Shown: one piece after another, positions 33,318 to 40,753 of the stretch | Numbering within the stretch: the first letter of the stretch is position 1 | Layout of the letters: every line of letters starts with the position of its first letter | From: Jatrophihabitans telluris | Lineage (GTDB): Bacteria > Actinomycetota > Actinomycetes > Mycobacteriales > Jatrophihabitantaceae | DNA: 64,000 nucleotides | Direction: 5' to 3' | Assembly (NCBI RefSeq): GCF_023516435.1 | Contig: NZ_CP097332.1 | Span: forward strand, 3,038,001-3,102,000 | Notes under the pieces: generated by a model | What the model saw: the letters and a program-made list of their open reading frames with translations, nothing else | Database searches by the model: none | What the model was told of the DNA's origin: nothing | Position numbers and translations under genes: made by a program

Positions 33318-33595
33318 GAAGCAGTTCCTCCGCCACCCTGAACTTGCACGCGCGGGGACTGCACCGTGTCGTGTGCTGATCGCGCGCATCGCCGCGGCTG
33401 AGCGGTGGGGTCGCACGAGCGCCGGAACAGCAGCAACCGAGCCGGCAAGACGGGGTCTCCGCGCGAAGTTCGAGCGCGAGGCCGATCCAGACGGCGCGCT
33501 GTCACGGAAGGAACGAGTGTGCTCGCTTGAACGAGTGGGTACGGGCTTTCGTCGACCTGTGGAAAACGAGATCCGGCCTGTGCGGTTGGGGATTG

Positions 33596-33669
33596 TGGGG
33601 CGGGTGGGACTCGAACCCACGACCCAGGGATTATGAGTCCCCTGCTCTAACCGGCTGAGCTACCGCCCC
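33596..33669 (-). tRNA. tRNA with CAU anticodon (Met or Ile2)
   Basis: The minus strand folds into a full cloverleaf: 7-bp acceptor (GGGGCGG with CCGCCCC, 33663-33669 and 33597-33603), D arm with AGCTCAGCCGGTTAGAGC, 5-bp anticodon stem around CTCATAA (anticodon CAT at 33633-33635), and T arm GTGGG-TTCGAGT-CCCAC. Discriminator is A at 33596; CCA is not encoded. It is not an initiator (paired 1-72 base and no three G-C anticodon-stem pairs). Whether it is elongator Met or lysidine-modified Ile(AUA) cannot be settled by eye. Confidence 0.95.
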
Positions 33670-33778: not shown

Positions 33779-33859
33779 CCGGCCACACGTCGGACGGCCG
33801 AGCTACCGGTCACACGTCGGACGGCCGTGCCACCCGGTCACGGCTGGACGGCCGAGCCA
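33779..33859. repeat. Three tandem copies of a ~27-bp repeat
   Basis: Copies begin at 33779, 33806 and 33834 with the shared pattern CCGGYCACACGTCGGACGGC and a variable tail GAGCTA/GTGCCA/GAGCCA. Copies one and two differ at few bases; the third is shorter by one base and has GGCTGG instead of ACGTCGG. The array lies in the ~300-bp gap between the tRNA and the double-CxxC gene; the rest of that gap (33670-33967) holds no credible gene. Confidence 0.75.
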
Positions 33860-33967
33860 GAGACCGTCCAGCGGCTGTGCGTTTGCGCGAGGACGTTGCA
33901 CAGACAGCCCGCCGTCGATGAGAATCGAATTTCGTTCACGCCGAACAACGCCGCGGGGGCCGATTCG

Positions 33968-34354
33968 ATGTTGGAGCCAGCCGACGCTGTCGGCGACGCG
34001 CCGGTCGACCCGGCGACCGGTAGGCATCGGCGCCGGCGACGAGCCGATCAGTCACCGTTCGAGGACCACTGCGACAGCTGTCACGGCGAGGGTCTGCAAA
34101 TCGCCCCGGCCTACCTGCAATGGGTCGAGACCGTCGATCAGCTGCGCGCGCGACTGGATTCCGTGGCAGGGCCGATCGAGGCTGGGATCGTTGCCGACCA
34201 GCTCAAGCGACACGAATCCCAGCCACCCGCGGGCGAGTGGGACTGGACGTGCCCGGATTGCCGCGGCCTGGGTGCTGTCCCAACCGAAGAGGGTCACGCC
34301 TTGCTGGCCTTTCTCGACCGGCACAATCGGCTGCCCTACGACCGTCGTCCGTAG
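33968..34354 (+). CDS. Small double-CxxC (zinc-ribbon/DnaJ-like) protein
   Basis: A 128-residue protein from the ATG at 33968 (a G-run seven bases upstream). It has a basic stretch RHRRRRRADQ, then CDSCHGEGLQI, a helical middle (LQWVETVDQLRARLD), then CPDCRGLGAV. The two CxxCxGxG units are like the zinc-binding elements of DnaJ, and four Cys suffice for one zinc site. No function can be given. A longer reading from 33827 would start inside the tandem repeat and is unlikely. It precedes glnT by 108 bp. Confidence 0.6.
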   Translation: MLEPADAVGDAPVDPATGRHRRRRRADQSPFEDHCDSCHGEGLQIAPAYLQWVETVDQLRARLDSVAGPIEAGIVADQLKRHESQPPAGEWDWTCPDCRGLGAVPTEEGHALLAFLDRHNRLPYDRRP

Positions 34355-34462
34355 TACCCCGACGTGGTAGCACCAGTTTGACCGCGCGGTAACGTCGTCG
34401 AAACTACCGACTCGTCTACTTACATGAAACGCCGGTTCACACCAGTAGACTCCGGAGACGCG

Positions 34463-35836
34463 ATGTCCCTCACGGTCAGTCCCGAAACCGAACGGCCTCC
34501 GGCACGCGCGGCGGCCACTACCGCGTCGCTGGCCGAGCTTGCCCGCGCCGACGAGGTCCGGTTCATCCTCGCCACCTTCACAACCCTCAACGGCAAGCCG
34601 TGTTCAAAGCTCGTCCCCGTCGAAGAGGCTGACGCGCTCGAACAGGACGGAGTCGGCTTCGCCGGCTACGCCGCCGGCTCGATGGGCCAGCTCCCCCGCG
34701 ACCCGGACGTCATCGCGGTCCCTGACATCGCCAGCTACACCCCGCTGCCCTTCGTCCGACCCGGCCTTGCCCTGGTGCACTGCGACCCCTACGTCGAGGG
34801 ACGCCCTTTCGCCTTCGCGCCCCGAGTCATTCTTCGTTCCCTGATCGCCAGAGCCGCCGAGCGCAATCTCACCCTGATGGCCGGGGCCGAGGTCGAGTAC
34901 TTCCTCGTGCACCGCCGCCCGGACGGTACGCTCGTGCCGGCCGATTCTCGCGACGACGCCGCGCAACCCTGCTACGACGCCCGTGGCCTGACCCGGATGT
35001 ATGACCACCTGACCGCGGTCTCGGACGCGATGGTCGCCCTGGGCTGGGGGCCGTACGCCAGCGACCACGAGGACGGCAACGGCCAGTTCGAGCAGAACTT
35101 CCGCTACGCCGACGCCCTGACCACCGCCGACCGCGTCGTCACCCTTCGCTACATCATTCAGGTACTCGCCGAGCAGCGGGGCATGACCGCGACCTTCATG
35201 CCCAAGCCCTGGACCGACCGAACCGGAAACGGACTGCACCTGCATCTGTCTCTGTGGCAGGACGGTGACTCCCGCTTTCCCCGACCGGCCGACGCGGAAG
35301 ACCCCTACGGACTCGGACTGTCCGGCCTCGCTTACTCCTTCGTCGGCGGTCTGCTCGATCACGCCGCCGGGCTGCACGCGCTCATCGCCCCGACCGTCAA
35401 TTCCTACAAGCGCACCGGTGCGCGCACGACCGCCTCGGGCGCCACGTGGGCACCGACCCAGGCCAGCTACGGCGGAAACGATCGCACCCACATGGTGCGG
35501 GTACCGGACGCTCAGCGGGTCGAACTACGGGCAGGGGACGGATCGGCCAACTCGTACTTGGCGATCGCGGCCGCCCTCGCGGCGGGCCTCGACGGCGTCG
35601 TCCGCAACGCCGACCCCGGCCCCCCGGGAGTCGCGCGGACCACAACCATGCCCCGGACCCTGCTGGATGCGGTCCACGCTCTCGACATCGACCCGGTCAT
35701 CCAAGCCGTGCTGGACTCGGTCGACCCGGCCTGTGGCGTTTCCGACTACTACGCAGCCCTCAAACGGGAGGAGTTCTATTCCTGGCACAACACCGTCTCG
35801 GACTGGGAAGTCGACCGTTACCTGACCGCCATCTGA
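34463..35836 (+). CDS. glnT: GlnT-type glutamine synthetase / gamma-glutamylmethylamide synthetase
   Basis: A 457-residue enzyme of the glutamine synthetase superfamily in the GlnT group. Active-site stretches are MAGAEVEYFLV, HEDGNGQFEQNFRYAD, NGLHLHLSLWQDG and KRTGARTTASGATWAP, with RVELRAGDGSANSYLAIAAA near the end. It adds ammonia or an amine to glutamate with ATP. In N-methylglutamate pathway operons the related GMAS makes gamma-glutamylmethylamide from methylamine, and the next three genes match that pathway. The ATG at 34463 has GGAG six bases before it. Simple glutamine synthetase activity is the alternative. Confidence 0.85.
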   Translation: MSLTVSPETERPPARAAATTASLAELARADEVRFILATFTTLNGKPCSKLVPVEEADALEQDGVGFAGYAAGSMGQLPRDPDVIAVPDIASYTPLPFVRPGLALVHCDPYVEGRPFAFAPRVILRSLIARAAERNLTLMAGAEVEYFLVHRRPDGTLVPADSRDDAAQPCYDARGLTRMYDHLTAVSDAMVALGWGPYASDHEDGNGQFEQNFRYADALTTADRVVTLRYIIQVLAEQRGMTATFMPKPWTDRTGNGLHLHLSLWQDGDSRFPRPADAEDPYGLGLSGLAYSFVGGLLDHAAGLHALIAPTVNSYKRTGARTTASGATWAPTQASYGGNDRTHMVRVPDAQRVELRAGDGSANSYLAIAAALAAGLDGVVRNADPGPPGVARTTTMPRTLLDAVHALDIDPVIQAVLDSVDPACGVSDYYAALKREEFYSWHNTVSDWEVDRYLTAI

Positions 35837-35915
35837 CCGGATCACGAACCGACCAGCCGGTCTGCTCCACCGAAGCCATCCGAAACCAGAACTCATCGAG
35901 CCAGAAGGGCCGCCC

Positions 35916-36821
35916 ATGTGCGGAATCGTCGGCATTCAGTTGCGGGACGAAACCCTGTATCCCAACCTCGGGGCATTGTTGACTCCGATGCTCTGCCACG
36001 CTGCCCATCGCGGCCCGGACTCAGCGGGCGTCGGGCTGTACGGCGATGCCCGCTACACCCGTCCCGGATTCAGCTCGATCTCGGTGTTGCTCGGTGAGGT
36101 CGAAGTCAGCCAGGTGACTACCGCGCTCGCCCGCGACCGTGACCTCGGCGCGGTCGAGGTCACCGCCGCCGGACCGACGACGGTCATTCGGGCGGCCACG
36201 GAGCCGTGGACGCTCGAACGCGGCGTGGCCGAAATCCTCGACGGCACCGGGGCAATCATCATCGGCCGAGGCCGCGAACTCGCCGTACTGAAAGGCACCG
36301 GCGACCCGAGCGCCCTGGCCGCCACCTTCGATCTGACCAGGGCAACCGGGTATCAGGGCATCGCTCACACCCGGATGGCCACCGAGTCCGCCGTCACCTC
36401 CGCGCACAGCCACCCGTTCTCGGTCGCTGCCGACCTGTGCCTGGTCCACAACGGCTCTTTCGCCAACCACGCCACCATCCGTCGTCAACTCCAGGCCGAG
36501 GGCCACGTCTTCGACAGCGATAACGACTCTGAGGTCGGCGCGCGCTATCTGGCGCACAAGCTGTCCGAAGGATCGGATCTCGAGAAGGCGCTGCGTCAAC
36601 TGTGCGATGAATTCGACGGCTTCTACACACTGCTCGTCACCACCGCGGACTCGTTCGCCGTCGTCCGCGACGCGATCGCCTGCAAACCCGCGGTCATCGC
36701 CCAAACGGACTCCTGGGTCGCGATGGCCTCGGAATACCGCAGTCTGGCGGGACTTCCCGGAATCGACCAGGCTCGGCTGTTCGAACCCGAGCCGGAGGAG
36801 GTGTACCTGTGGCAACGCTGA
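35916..36821 (+). CDS. glxB: Class II glutamine amidotransferase (GlxB / MgsA-like)
   Basis: A 301-residue Ntn-type amidotransferase. Cys2 in MCGIVGIQ is the nucleophile once Met is removed, followed by HAAHRGPDSAGVGLYG, HTRMATESAVTSAHSHPFS and LVHNGSFANH, the amidotransferase order. In GlxBCD/MgsABC complexes this subunit takes ammonia or methylamine from the glutamine-like donor. AAGGG precedes the ATG. The 3' end overlaps glxC, showing operon organisation. I infer the donor could be gamma-glutamylmethylamide made by glnT. Confidence 0.88.
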   Translation: MCGIVGIQLRDETLYPNLGALLTPMLCHAAHRGPDSAGVGLYGDARYTRPGFSSISVLLGEVEVSQVTTALARDRDLGAVEVTAAGPTTVIRAATEPWTLERGVAEILDGTGAIIIGRGRELAVLKGTGDPSALAATFDLTRATGYQGIAHTRMATESAVTSAHSHPFSVAADLCLVHNGSFANHATIRRQLQAEGHVFDSDNDSEVGARYLAHKLSEGSDLEKALRQLCDEFDGFYTLLVTTADSFAVVRDAIACKPAVIAQTDSWVAMASEYRSLAGLPGIDQARLFEPEPEEVYLWQR

Positions 36822-37555
36822 CGCCCACCGACCCGCAGCCGACCACTGACCGCCGTGCCGAGCGCACGACAAAGGTCGTCGATCTGGCCTCGAGCTCGGT
36901 CCGCGAGCTCAACCAGGCCCTGCACGAGAGCAGCAGCACCGGCGGCGAATCCTCCGCCGTCGAATGGGTGATCACGAACCCGCAGGGCGAACACGCCATC
37001 GCGTGCGGTCTGACCGAGCCGGTACACGTCCGAATCGAGGGCCACGTCGGTTATTACTGCGCTGGCATGAACCAGCGGGCACACGTGGAAGTCCGGGGTA
37101 ACGCCGGCGTCGGCCTGGCCGAGAACATGATGTCTGGACGGGTCGACGTTTCCGGCGACGCATCCCAATCGGCCGGCGCGACCGGTCACGGCGGCCTGTT
37201 GGTCATCAACGGAAATGCCGCCGCGCGCTGCGGAATCTCCATGAAGGGCATCGACATCGTCGTCGGCGGCAACGTCGGCCACATGAGTGCGTTCATGGCC
37301 CAGGCAGGTCGACTGGTGATCTGCGGCGACGCCGGTGATGCACTGGGCGATTCGCTGTACGAGGCCCACCTCTATGTCCGGGGCACCGTCAAGTCCCTCG
37401 GCGCCGACTGCGTGGCCAAACCGATGCGCGCCCACCATCACACCGAGCTGGCCGACCTGCTGAGCCGAGCCGCAATGGCCTACTCCACCGCGGAATTCAC
37501 CCGTTACGGCTCGGCCCGCTCCCTCTACAACTTCCACGTCGACAATGCCTACTGA
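36809..37555 (+). CDS. glxC: Glutamate synthase alpha-subunit C-terminal-like protein (GlxC / MgsB-like)
   Basis: A 248-residue protein with the right-handed beta-helix of the glutamate synthase C-terminal (GXGXG) domain. Repeats of Gly-Asn/Asp-Ala-Gly are clear: RGNAGVGLAENMMSGRVDV, VINGNAAARCGISMKGID, VGGNVGHMSAFMAQAGRLVI, ICGDAGDALGDSLYEA. It is the structural partner joining amidotransferase and synthase subunits. Starts with GTG at 36809 with GGAGGAGG upstream, overlapping the end of glxB by 13 bp. Confidence 0.87.
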   Translation: MATLTPTDPQPTTDRRAERTTKVVDLASSSVRELNQALHESSSTGGESSAVEWVITNPQGEHAIACGLTEPVHVRIEGHVGYYCAGMNQRAHVEVRGNAGVGLAENMMSGRVDVSGDASQSAGATGHGGLLVINGNAAARCGISMKGIDIVVGGNVGHMSAFMAQAGRLVICGDAGDALGDSLYEAHLYVRGTVKSLGADCVAKPMRAHHHTELADLLSRAAMAYSTAEFTRYGSARSLYNFHVDNAY

Positions 37556-37579
37556 TACCCACTTCGACGGAGATCGCCG

Positions 37580-38938
37580 ATGACCAGCGCGAACACCGAC
37601 AGCGGGACGGCCAGCTCCGGCCTGCGCGAGTCGGCCACCTTCGACCGAGCCACCATCCACGAAATTCAGCGTGCGGCCGAGACGGGTGTGTACGACATTC
37701 GCGGTTGGGGCGCCAAACGAGCGGTCCCCCACTTCGACGATCTGCTGCTGCTCGGGGCCAGCATGTCCCGTTACCCACTGGAAGGTTATCGGGAACGCTG
37801 CGACACCGATGTGGTCCTCGGCGACCGGCACGCGAAGTTCCCCCTGCACCTGCAGATCCCCGTGACCATCGCCGGCATGTCCTTCGGTGCCCTGTCAGCC
37901 CAGGCCAAGGAGGCACTGGGCCGCGGCGCCAGCGAGGTGGGTACGTCGACGACGACCGGCGACGGCGGGATGACGGCCGAGGAGCGGGGCCAGTCCAAGC
38001 ACCTGGTGTACCAGTATCTGCCCTCGCGCTACGGCATGAATCCCGATGACCTCCGGCGGGCCGACGCCATCGAGATCGTGCTCGGTCAGGGGGCCAAACC
38101 AGGCGGCGGAGGCATGCTGCTCGGCCAGAAGATCACCGAACGGGTGGCCGGCATGCGGACCCTGCCGGTCGGGGTCGACCAGCGCAGCGCCTGCCGTCAT
38201 CCCGACTGGACCGGTCCGGACGACCTGGAGATAAAGATCCGCGAGCTGCGGGAGATCACCGACTGGGAAAAGCCGATCTACGTCAAGGTCGGAGCTACCC
38301 GGACGTACTTCGATGTGGCCCTGGCGGTGAAGTCGGGCGCCGACGTCGTGGTGGTGGACGGGATGCAGGGTGGCACGGCCGCCACTCAGGAGGTCTTCAT
38401 CGAACACGTGGGTATTCCCACCCTCGCCGCCATCCCGCAGGCGGTGCAGGCCCTGCAGGAGCTGGGCATGCACCGCAAGGTTCAGCTGATCGTCTCCGGC
38501 GGCGTCCGCAACGGTGCCGACCTCGCCAAGTGCCTGGCGCTGGGGGCCGATGCCGTTTCCATCGGTACCGCAGCGCTGATCGCGCTCGGTGACAACAGTC
38601 CGCGCTTCGCCGAGGAGTACCGAGCACTCGGATCTGAAGCCGGTTTCTACGACGACTACCAGGACGGACGAGACCCCGCGGGCATCACGACCCAGGATCC
38701 GGAGTTGTCGGCCCGACTGGATCCGGTGCTGGGCGGGCGCCGGCTCGCGAATCTCCTCCGTGTCATGACGATGGAGGCCCAAACCCTGGCCCGCGCCTGT
38801 GGCAAGGCACACGTCCACAACCTGGAGCCGGAGGATCTGGTCGCGCTCACCATCGAGGCGGCCGCGATGGCGCGCGTCCCGCTGGCCGGCACGTCATGGA
38901 TCCCGGGGCGGCCCTCCCGCGACGGCGACCGCTGGTGA
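37580..38938 (+). CDS. glxD: FMN-binding glutamate synthase family protein (GlxD / MgsC-like)
   Basis: A 452-residue TIM-barrel protein. It has the synthase stretches VTIAGMSFGALSAQAKEAL, QGAKPGGGGMLLGQKI, KVGATRTYFDVALAVKSGAD, VDGMQGGTAATQEVFIEH and IVSGGVRNGADLAKCLALGA, where FMN and 2-oxoglutarate bind. The Cys ligands that hold the 3Fe-4S cluster in classical GOGAT are not evident: the equivalent region reads DGRDPAGITTQ. I believe this is usual for GlxD, though only from memory. It would reductively transfer (methyl)amine to 2-oxoglutarate. GGAG precedes the ATG. Confidence 0.87.
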   Translation: MTSANTDSGTASSGLRESATFDRATIHEIQRAAETGVYDIRGWGAKRAVPHFDDLLLLGASMSRYPLEGYRERCDTDVVLGDRHAKFPLHLQIPVTIAGMSFGALSAQAKEALGRGASEVGTSTTTGDGGMTAEERGQSKHLVYQYLPSRYGMNPDDLRRADAIEIVLGQGAKPGGGGMLLGQKITERVAGMRTLPVGVDQRSACRHPDWTGPDDLEIKIRELREITDWEKPIYVKVGATRTYFDVALAVKSGADVVVVDGMQGGTAATQEVFIEHVGIPTLAAIPQAVQALQELGMHRKVQLIVSGGVRNGADLAKCLALGADAVSIGTAALIALGDNSPRFAEEYRALGSEAGFYDDYQDGRDPAGITTQDPELSARLDPVLGGRRLANLLRVMTMEAQTLARACGKAHVHNLEPEDLVALTIEAAAMARVPLAGTSWIPGRPSRDGDRW

Positions 38939-38942
38939 CCCG

Positions 38943-40118
38943 ATGAGTTCGCTCGTCCACCCGAACCTGGAGGAGCTGCCCGACCGGGCCGATGTGGTCG
39001 TCGTCGGCGCTGGGCTCACCGGCGCGGCGGCGGCCTGGGCCGGCACGCGGCGCGACCTGTCGGTCGTCGTCCTGGAGCAGTTCACCATCGGCCACGCGCA
39101 CGGCAGCTCACACGGCAGCGCGCGCATCGTCCGGCGCGCCTACCCCGACGAGCTCTACGTCGGGCTAACCGGACGAGCGTTCGAACTCTGGCAGGAGCTG
39201 GAAGCCTCGGCCGCAATGCCCATCCTGACCATGACCGGAGGCATCGATCACGGCGACCGGCGCGACCCCGAACGCATCGCCGAGATCTTCAGCCGCGCCG
39301 GCGTCCGGCATGCGCTGCTCGGGGCGGGCGAGGCGGAATCCCGCTGGCCCGGCATGCGCTTCGACGGACCCGTGCTGTTCCACCCCCAAGCCGGGGTGAT
39401 GGACGCCGACCGCGCCATCCAGGCCTTTGTGGGCCAGGCCAAAGCCGGCGGAGCCCTGGTGTTCGAGAACGCCTCGATGCTCGACGCCCAGCTGGACCCG
39501 GGCGGCGTCATCGTGCAAACCAGCATCGGAACCGTCACCGCGCGACGGCTCGTCCTCGCCGCGGGTGGCTGGCTGGCGGGTCTGGCCGAATCGCTGACCG
39601 GAACCCGGCTGCGCCTACCGCGACTGAGCGTGACCCAGCAGCAGGCGTTCCACTTCGAACGTAGCGAGCCAGACGTCGAGTGGCCGATCACCGTGCACAA
39701 GCTTGCGAGTGGGGCGGGCCTTCAGGCCTACCACCTGCCCGGGGGCCGCGATGGTGGGCCGGACCACGATCGCAAGATCTCCGAACACTGCGGAACCACC
39801 GGCCCGACGACACCCCTGACCCGCGACGGCCTCATCGACCCGACCGTGCGGGAGCGCGTCACGTCTTACGTGCGGGAATGGCTACCGGGCCTCGTGCCGC
39901 TGCCACGCCGCGAGGTCAGCTGTCTCTACACCTCCACCGACAACGAGGACTTCCTGCTCGACATCGTCGACAATCGCATCGTGATCGCCTCGCCCTGCTC
40001 CGGCCATGGCGCCAAGTTCGCCCCGGTGCTGGGCGAAATCATCACCGGCCTGGTCACCGGCGAAGCGCGGCCGGATCCGCGATTCTCCCTGGCCGGGCAT
40101 CTAGCCTGGACCTCATGA
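38943..40118 (+). CDS. Monomeric sarcosine oxidase-type FAD oxidoreductase
   Basis: A 391-residue MSOX/MTOX-family flavoprotein. The N-terminal FAD loop is VVVVGAGLTGAAAAWAG (18-34) with Glu45 after the second strand. HGSSHGSARIVRRAYPDE (53-70) matches the family signature. Cys327 in SCLYTSTDNEDFLLD lines up with the cysteine that binds FAD covalently in monomeric sarcosine oxidase, and CSGHGAKFAPVLGE closes the fold. It oxidises a secondary amine; in this operon N-methylglutamate is the obvious candidate, giving glutamate and formaldehyde. It starts 4 bp after glxD and overlaps the regulator (ATGA). Confidence 0.87.
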   Translation: MSSLVHPNLEELPDRADVVVVGAGLTGAAAAWAGTRRDLSVVVLEQFTIGHAHGSSHGSARIVRRAYPDELYVGLTGRAFELWQELEASAAMPILTMTGGIDHGDRRDPERIAEIFSRAGVRHALLGAGEAESRWPGMRFDGPVLFHPQAGVMDADRAIQAFVGQAKAGGALVFENASMLDAQLDPGGVIVQTSIGTVTARRLVLAAGGWLAGLAESLTGTRLRLPRLSVTQQQAFHFERSEPDVEWPITVHKLASGAGLQAYHLPGGRDGGPDHDRKISEHCGTTGPTTPLTRDGLIDPTVRERVTSYVREWLPGLVPLPRREVSCLYTSTDNEDFLLDIVDNRIVIASPCSGHGAKFAPVLGEIITGLVTGEARPDPRFSLAGHLAWTS

Positions 40119-40753
40119 CTCACAGCGTCGGTGCCGGATCACCCGAGCGGGAGATCACCGCCGAGTCGATCGGCGAAGGCGATCTCGAACGCAGCATCGC
40201 CCGACAGGTTCGGCACTATCGGGCGCAGGCGGGTCTGTCCATCGCCGAACTCGCGAGCAGGGTGGGCGTCAGCAAGGCGATGATCTCCAAGATCGAGAAC
40301 GCCCAGACCTCGTGCAGCCTGACCACCCTGGCCCGGCTGGCGACCGGTCTGTCCGTCCCGGTCACCGCGCTGTTCCGCGGCGTCGACACCGAGCGCGAGG
40401 CCGTCTTCGTACCGGCCGGACACGGCGCTCGGATCGTGCGCCGCGGGAGCCGGGTCGGGCATCAGTACGAGTTGCTGGGTGCGCTGCGGGGAGAACACAA
40501 ACGCATGGAGGCCGTGCTGGTGACCCTGACCGAGTCCTCGGAGGTTTTTCCGCTCTTCCAACATCCCGGCACCGAGCTGCTCTACATGCTGGACGGAGAA
40601 ATGGTCTATGGGCACGGCGATTCCAGCTACCTGATGAAGCCGGGCGACTCGATGCAGTTCGACGGCGAAGGCCCGCACGGGCCGCAGGAGTTGCACCGCC
40701 TGCCGATCCGTTTCCTGTCCATCACCGCCTACGGCGACACCGCCGCGAGCTGA
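40115..40753 (+). CDS. XRE-cupin transcriptional regulator
   Basis: A 212-residue regulator. An XRE HTH lies at about 28-80 (LSIAELASRVGVSKAMISKI). A C-terminal cupin domain follows, with LFQHPGTELLYMLDGEMVY, SYLMKPGDSMQFDGEGPHGP and RFLSITAY. In related regulators (PuuR and others) the cupin senses small amines or their derivatives. Its ATG overlaps the oxidase stop (ATGA), so it is the last gene of the glnT-glx operon and probably controls it in response to an amine substrate. Motifs for the HTH and cupin are firm; the ligand is inference. Confidence 0.87.
   Translation: MTHSVGAGSPEREITAESIGEGDLERSIARQVRHYRAQAGLSIAELASRVGVSKAMISKIENAQTSCSLTTLARLATGLSVPVTALFRGVDTEREAVFVPAGHGARIVRRGSRVGHQYELLGALRGEHKRMEAVLVTLTESSEVFPLFQHPGTELLYMLDGEMVYGHGDSSYLMKPGDSMQFDGEGPHGPQELHRLPIRFLSITAYGDTAAS

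Follow-up and report, generated by a model that had tools for sequence, protein, structure and literature searches.

A putative N-methylglutamate pathway ending in a single-chain oxidase in Jatrophihabitans telluris

A six-gene operon of the actinobacterium Jatrophihabitans telluris is proposed to be an N-methylglutamate (NMG) pathway that ends in a single-chain oxidase and serves mainly to obtain nitrogen from methylamine. We give this reading a probability of about two in three. The operon lies on the plus strand of a 64,000-nucleotide window, the whole stretch of DNA analysed here (G000:C1:3038001-3102000), in a genome that consists of a single contig of 4.19 Mb. It comprises glnT, glxB, glxC, glxD, a gene for an oxidase of the monomeric sarcosine oxidase (MSOX) type, and a gene for an XRE-cupin regulator. 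Gene order, gene families, conserved active-site residues, the failure to find a four-subunit enzyme and the recurrence of the arrangement were computed here, and from them we infer the substrates, products and regulation of the operon. Methylamine commonly serves as a source of nitrogen and of C1 units. The NMG pathway itself is already known, with MgdABCD as its last step according to the available parts of two papers (PMC3160333, PMC7948447), so that the novelty would lie in a single-chain last step, a function predicted from sequence. No single-chain NMG oxidase was found in the literature searched, which was open-licence and left subscription journals largely outside. This holds for the available parts of PMC3160333, PMC5023230, PMC7948447, PMC4617892, PMC4222082, PMC10704036, PMC8875376 and PMC5520151. 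One of these does mention a monomeric sarcosine oxidase in SAR11, beside a glycine betaine transporter (PMC3160333, in part).

The operon and the proposed pathway

The genes of the operon, all on the plus strand, are as follows.

34463..35836, plus strand: glnT, gamma-glutamylmethylamide synthetase (GmaS)-like (TIGR03105; match to 7cql_A, E 7.1e-112; site residues)
35916..36821, plus strand: glxB (mgsA-like), class II glutamine amidotransferase subunit (GATase_6; N-terminal MCGIVG)
36809..37555, plus strand: glxC (mgsB-like), GXGXG-domain subunit (GTG start; overlaps glxB)
37580..38938, plus strand: glxD (mgsC-like), FMN-type glutamate-synthase-domain subunit (Glu_synthase)
38943..40118, plus strand: MSOX-type FAD oxidase, proposed NMG oxidase (DAO; Cys327; predicted fold)
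40115..40753, plus strand: XRE-cupin regulator (HTH plus Cupin_2)

The initial annotation had placed GlnT, GlxB, GlxC and GlxD here, and both coordinates and NCBIfam and Pfam families agree with it. GlnT scores 578.6 bits against TIGR03105 (NCBIfam cut-off 469.6), and the GATase_6, GXGXG, Glu_synthase, DAO and HTH plus Cupin_2 matches are all above the Pfam cut-offs. A second in-frame ATG at 34424 is an alternative start of glnT. All three parts of an NMG synthase, the amidotransferase, GXGXG and FMN-synthase chains, are thus present in one operon. The oxidase start follows the glxD stop after a gap of 4 bases, and the oxidase stop codon overlaps the start of the regulator gene (ATGA). This overlap bears out the earlier claim that an amine-type XRE-cupin regulator is coupled to the oxidase, as far as coupling goes. 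The label "amine-type" is weak, as the best named model, PuuR, reaches 38.8 bits against a cut-off of 211.

In the proposed pathway, GlnT would use ATP to join methylamine and glutamate into gamma-glutamylmethylamide. GlxBCD, acting as NMG synthase, would free methylamine from this intermediate and couple it to 2-oxoglutarate, which would give NMG. The MSOX-type flavoenzyme would then use O2 to oxidise the N-methyl group of NMG, producing glutamate, formaldehyde and H2O2, and would stand in for the folate-linked four-subunit MgdABCD. The XRE-cupin protein is probably a sensor of an amine or of NMG, while expression of the operon is probably adjusted by a GlnR-type nitrogen signal.

The proteobacterial NMG pathway (gmaS, mgsABC and mgdABCD in Methyloversatilis universalis and SAR11) shares with the window a GmaS-like synthetase and an identically ordered NMG synthase trio; most of the pseudomonad loci read also have an XRE-cupin relative. 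It differs in the last step, as the window has one MSOX-type chain in the place of mgdABCD, and no mgdABCD was found. Actinobacterial clusters of GmaS and NMG synthase have been described in Mycobacterium sp. 141 and 155, where they were proposed to act in methylamine oxidation. There, however, the last step was assigned to a distant mgdABCD-like set, about 1,365 gene numbers apart in strain 141, and the available part of the paper says nothing of a single-chain oxidase within the cluster (PMC5023230).

The single-chain oxidase

The gene after glxD had been read as encoding a monomeric sarcosine oxidase-type enzyme with Cys327 as an apparent covalent-FAD residue, and both points hold. The protein matches MSOX in sequence (1el5_A, E 1.2e-40), and its predicted structure (mean predicted local distance difference test score, pLDDT, 90.0) is MSOX-like, with MSOX 9u3b_A as the top match in the PDB (TM-score 0.86). 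The fold is shared with both MSOX (1el5) and N-methyltryptophan oxidase (2uzz), at TM-scores of about 0.86 and 0.85. The MSOX residues R49, R52, Y254, K265, H269, Cys315, Y317 and K348 align with R61, R64, Y263, K278, H282, Cys327, Y329 and K358 of the window oxidase. We take these residues to have the flavin, O2 and carboxylate roles of their MSOX counterparts, and CxY to be the covalent-FAD motif. All the features of the MSOX, N-methyl-L-tryptophan oxidase (MTOX) and NikD family are therefore present, namely a single chain of DAO fold, CxY (C327), the catalytic Lys (K278) and the carboxylate Arg and Lys (R64 and K358).

The window oxidase is also unlike the characterised enzymes in several ways. 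Its identity to MSOX is about 28%, and it stays below the curated NCBIfam cut-offs both for soxA_mon (189.7 bits against 479.65) and for N-methyl-L-tryptophan oxidase (216.3 bits against 257). Its clade differs from MSOX and MTOX in having Ala357, not Phe, after SGHG, and in replacing a Phe by Cys352, a change also seen in two outgroup rows. A second MSOX-like oxidase is encoded in the same genome (L117, G000:C1:347852-348988). It is 38% identical to Bacillus MSOX 1el5 and lies nearer to characterised MSOX than the operon oxidase does, both by identity and in the tree. A housekeeping sarcosine oxidase was considered for the operon gene and is disfavoured by this nearer MSOX relative.

In a tree of 75 rows, midpoint-rooted and with long branches, the operon MSOX-type proteins group in a clade that does not include MSOX, 7exs or the paralogue from the same genome. 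A second single-chain type found in such operons, SoxB-like, forms a separate clade, and MgdA forms another. One non-operon row (L091) lies inside the operon MSOX-type clade. The idea of an operon-only clade was dropped because ten non-operon rows lie within or beside it in a wider tree. A residue comparison of the SoxB-like and MSOX types (30 of 31 SoxB-like frames, with a length filter) cannot be trusted across the middle of the chain, since the window oxidase itself was misaligned there, and none of the claims here draws on it.

One residue, Lys253, may bind the side-chain carboxylate of NMG. It ends the strand 249-253 of the predicted structure, which bears the residue aligned with MSOX Met245. 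Lys253 occurs in 21 of 23 operon-borne rows compared with 3 of 16 non-operon rows, and those three all belong to the 10 non-operon rows that share its clade. The site was noticed in the first 14 of the 23 operon rows; of the remaining 9, 8 have it, compared with 3/10 same-clade non-operon rows (p 0.015) and 3/16 of all non-operon rows (p 0.001), with relatedness ignored in both values.

The last step across genomes

The recurrence of the arrangement was followed in two sets of loci. The named loci are the 80 with the highest GlxD similarity out of 583 (54 actinobacterial and 26 proteobacterial; GlxD identity 81-89% across the 80 listed loci), and shares among them are biased. A fairer sample is given by 393 Actinomycetes genomes, with the top 4 candidates per genome scored. 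High-GC frame calling hid frames in L015, L054, L066 and L111, where oxidases were recovered by tBLASTn.

Among the 54 named actinobacterial loci, 13 have the MSOX type, 35 the SoxB-like type and 1 has mgdA and mgdC, and the stretch read contains no oxidase in 5. Ten of the 13 MSOX-type loci keep the order of the window (glxD, oxidase, XRE-cupin gene); two have an amidohydrolase gene before the XRE-cupin gene, and one has an ammonium-transporter-type (Amt) gene after glxD. With 13 of 54 loci of this type and 10 in the same order, the arrangement is not a chance one. The SoxB-like gene mostly follows glxD, with 8 of the 35 just upstream of glnT, 3 a few kb away and one an edge fragment; four of the 35 were detected by tBLASTn. 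In the 26 proteobacterial loci, mgdA is present in 18, no oxidase was found in 8 (some of these stretches end early), and none has a single-chain type.

The fairer sample agrees with this picture. GlxD is present in 41 of the 393 genomes, with 8 operons of the MSOX type, 21 of the SoxB-like single-chain type, 5 with mgdA and mgdC, and 7 with none in the stretch read. No two of the three types occur together in any operon read, and operons with the MSOX type are conserved across several actinobacterial families. Every genome with both GlxD and an MSOX-type relative (8 genomes) has such a relative no more than 6 kb from glxD. Six of these relatives follow glxD immediately, with no more than 16 bases between match ends, one stands 0.66 kb behind it and one upstream of glnT; one of the eight genomes has a second MSOX-type relative elsewhere. 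Homologues of the XRE-cupin regulator accompany all types in the sampled operons, in 7/7 of the MSOX type, 20/21 of the SoxB-like type, 5/5 of the mgd type and 6/7 without oxidase, the window not counted. The synthetase, the synthase and the regulator thus make up a nearly constant module, in which mainly the last enzyme changes. The oxidase-less loci (L112, L113, L122, L123, L124, L125, L128, L140, L156 and L081) carry glnT and glxD, mostly as a full glnT-glxBCD set, and have an XRE-cupin homologue except in L156. The XRE-cupin gene of L081 is missing from the neighbourhood counts owing to high-GC frame calling.

The initial annotation suggested a search for mgdABCD elsewhere in the genome, and none was found. 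A profile search with SoxD (PF04267) gave no match in the genome, a result that is weak alone as the 14 control genomes were silent too. SoxG (PF04268) matched solely inside an 839-aa DAO-FAO_M-GCV_T protein of the dimethylglycine-oxidase type, with a match in 0 of 14 controls. A full-length MgdC query, which found alpha subunits of other genomes, had no match at E 1e-30 among the 16 of 31 candidates scored. A four-subunit MgdABCD elsewhere in the genome was rejected on these searches, with SoxD and SoxG controls at 0/14. Since no MgdABCD was found, we term the operon a variant rather than the canonical NMG pathway. The suggestion that the single oxidase could replace the four-subunit enzyme gains from these results, given a GmaS-like GlnT, no mgdABCD found, and at most one of the three alternatives in each operon. 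A full-length MgdC-like alpha subunit was likewise not found in 5 of 14 MSOX-type genomes, the other four being those of Streptomyces spiroverticillatus, Streptomyces sp. 8K308, Salinibacterium soli and Cryobacterium luteum, nor in 23 of 29 other actinobacterial operon genomes (the mgd-type L043 aside). At most 16 candidates were scored per genome in this search, so that these absences are not proofs.

Several observations weigh against the proposed pathway. By presence alone, GlxD and the MSOX type are weakly associated: MSOX-type relatives (E 1e-50) occur in 45 of the 393 genomes, 8 of them among the 41 with GlxD and 37 among the 352 without it (p 0.08). The case rests on adjacency. In the wider tree, 23 operon and 10 non-operon rows share one clade, and the Lys253 site was chosen after the first 14 operon rows had been viewed. 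An alpha subunit of the SoxA/MgdC kind is present in 9 of 14 MSOX-type genomes (one cut by a contig end). The search does not distinguish sarcosine oxidases from MgdC, and these nine may be the former. In the 7 of 41 sampled GlxD operons without an oxidase in the stretch read, another enzyme may act. Non-operon relatives were drawn from 13 loci in GlxD-less genomes and from L170, whose genome has an operon copy too, and some of their neighbours were scanned. At L161 and L162 the oxidase stands with an amidohydrolase and Amt and with no glx genes, and L161 additionally has an ornithine-cyclodeaminase-like gene.

An unlikely alternative builds on much of this evidence. The oxidase would be a general enzyme or one for another N-methyl amino acid (sarcosine, N-methylalanine or a like substrate) that only shares its regulation with the NMG synthase genes, and NMG would be demethylated by a different protein, such as the dimethylglycine-oxidase-like protein of 839 aa encoded at a distance of about 150 kb. 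The relatives in GlxD-less genomes, the surroundings of L161 and L162, the DAO-FAO_M-GCV_T protein in the own genome and the oxidase-less operons all favour it. Since MSOX-type relatives occur without the operon, the oxidase may indeed accept other N-methyl amino acids, and the wider family that the operon draws on consists of probable oxidases of that kind. This alternative does not account, however, for the tight coupling of the oxidase gene to glxD and the regulator, for its proximity to glxD in 8/8 genomes, for the rule that no operon read has two types, or for the separate oxidase in the genome that is closer to characterised MSOX.

The single-chain NMG pathway may extend well beyond the window. 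Actinobacteria would then usually end the pathway with a single-chain flavoenzyme, the replacement having arisen on two or more occasions from separate branches of the DAO fold, MSOX in the window and SoxB-like in mycobacteria, rhodococci and Nocardia. Such pathways would be folate-independent, nitrogen-serving and GlnR-controlled, would release formaldehyde and, in the MSOX type, H2O2, and Lys253 would bind the side-chain carboxylate of the substrate. This wider proposal is tentative, and as a joint claim it falls somewhat short of an even chance. If true, surveys based on mgdABCD would miss most such bacteria (29/41 GlxD operons are single-chain and 5 have mgdA and mgdC). Free formaldehyde, and not methylene-folate, would then be the form in which the C1 unit is released, and the pathway would serve nitrogen scavenging to a greater degree than methylotrophy. 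The oxidase would also offer a simple means of assaying NMG.

The amine, nitrogen control and origin

The specificity of GlnT bears on which amine enters the pathway. Its nearest solved structures are GmaS 7cql and the glutamate-methylamine ligase 9qur. The proposed methylamine site of Rhodovulum GmaS (RhGmaS) consists of Y147, Q175, D177, E179, E186, N188 and K30', and Ala48 takes the place of the ammonium-binding Asp50 of glutamine synthetase (PMC7948447, in part). The window GlnT is 48% identical to RhGmaS, from which the proteobacterial operon copies are farther (median 41.5%). It keeps six of the seven site residues (K30', Y147, D177, E179, E186 and N188), and its Ala80 aligns with A48. 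These six residues and the Ala at the Asp50 position are identical in 51/51 actinobacterial and 26/26 proteobacterial rows, a comparison that covered 77 of 80 GlnT loci after partial, split or missing frames were excluded. With six of seven site residues conserved and Ala at the Asp50 position, the sequence comparison supports a GmaS-like GlnT and not a glutamine synthetase.

The seventh residue would allow a somewhat different amine. The Q175 position (residue 212 of the window GlnT, numbered from the start at 34424) is Ala in 51/51 actinobacterial GlnTs and Gln in 26/26 proteobacterial ones; the neighbouring position of the ATP-site W189 likewise differs between the two groups. A change from Gln to Ala may give space for a slightly larger amine and so alter the size preference. 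It is accordingly conceivable, if rather improbable, that ethylamine or another short alkylamine is the substrate of GlnT and GlxBCD and that the oxidase frees the matching aldehyde. RhGmaS does accept ethylamine and propylamine, although its Km is lowest for methylamine (PMC7948447, in part). The other six methylamine-site residues are kept in spite of the Gln-to-Ala change. MSOX itself is an N-demethylating enzyme, which also argues for methylamine. Genes of the dimethylamine-monooxygenase type (HODM), an enzyme that produces methylamine (PMC5520151, in part), stand near 12 of the 54 named actinobacterial loci (SoxB-like in 10 and oxidase-less in 2) and by 2 of 40 sampled ones (both SoxB-like). 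This upstream support does not reach the window's own type. HODM genes were found by 0/13 named and 0/7 sampled MSOX-type operons, and none was found in the own genome, where 1 of 14 controls gave a match. A copper amine oxidase was not found in the genome either (1 of 14 controls gave a match), so that no other methylamine route is expected from it.

Ordinary ammonia assimilation by a type III glutamine synthetase, a split glutamate synthase and an unrelated oxidase is highly improbable: NCBIfam names GlnT a type III glutamate-ammonia ligase (the PDB names GmaS 7cql likewise) and GlnR control fits general nitrogen supply, but GlnT lacks the ammonium-binding Asp, its nearest solved relatives are 7cql and 9qur, and a further glutamate synthase frame, full-length at 1574 aa and with GXGXG, is present in the genome. 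The plain glutamine synthetase and glutamate synthase reading was rejected on the missing Asp and this separate frame.

Nitrogen control of the operon is suggested by one site upstream of glnT, read from the sequence.

34389..34404, plus strand: GlnR-box-like site, GTAAC-n6-GAAAC, upstream of glnT

The site fits the GlnR boxes of Streptomyces coelicolor and Mycobacterium smegmatis (PMC10704036, in part). The strict GlnR motif occurs 4 times in the 64-kb window compared with 1.5 expected, a number reached in 9 of 100 shuffles. Upstream of glnT, a strict box is present in 6/59 actinobacterial regions (0.55 hits expected) and in 0/26 proteobacterial ones, two loci with no usable glnT start being left out. 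A promoter scan upstream of the operon found nothing.

A comparable operon is known from M. smegmatis. The genes msmeg_6259-6264 (amt1, glnT, glxB, glxC, glxD and a putative oxidoreductase, 6264) resemble the operon in content and are GlnR-dependent under nitrogen starvation, according to the available parts of two papers (PMC4222082, PMC4617892). Under nitrogen starvation, they are expressed more highly in the wild type than in a glnR mutant, with fold changes of 11.67, 16.11, 10.36, 7.40, 7.01 and 5.06, and GlnR bound DNA upstream of amt1 (PMC4222082, in part). The genes msmeg_6260, 6261 and 6263 were up under nitrogen limitation (PMC4617892, in part). Unlike the window oxidase, the product of msmeg_6264 is expected to be of the SoxB-like single-chain type, from Mycolicibacterium gene order only. 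If the proposed pathway is true, it would provide a likely function for this nitrogen-regulated operon, to which the available parts of these papers assign none.

Other genes recur in the neighbourhood of such operons. Amt genes stand by 6/13 MSOX-type and 24/35 SoxB-like named loci. A gene for an allantoate-amidohydrolase-like protein (NF006770) stands by 14/54 named and 6/40 sampled actinobacterial operons, for example at L010:10490-11785 and L035:10104-11333, and it is also the amidohydrolase gene of the glx-less loci L161 and L162; two scanned copies are well over the cut-off.

The operon was probably acquired by transfer, as GlxD was not found in the near kin and is patchy in the order; loss in the kin is also possible. 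The search for GlxD was negative in 8 other genomes of the same genus and 15 of the same family (11 of the 23 at least 90% complete). In the same order, 6 of 37 genomes have GlxD, with the MSOX type in L111 and L115, the SoxB-like type in L114 and L116 (both in the 393-genome sample) and no oxidase in L112 and L113. The base composition of the operon does not stand out. A tRNA-Met gene (cat; 33595-33669, minus strand) lies about 800 bases before glnT and is a possible insertion point for a transferred operon. Between them, at 33827-34354 of the window, is a small open reading frame with an anti-TRAP-like match and a weak DnaJ-type zinc motif.

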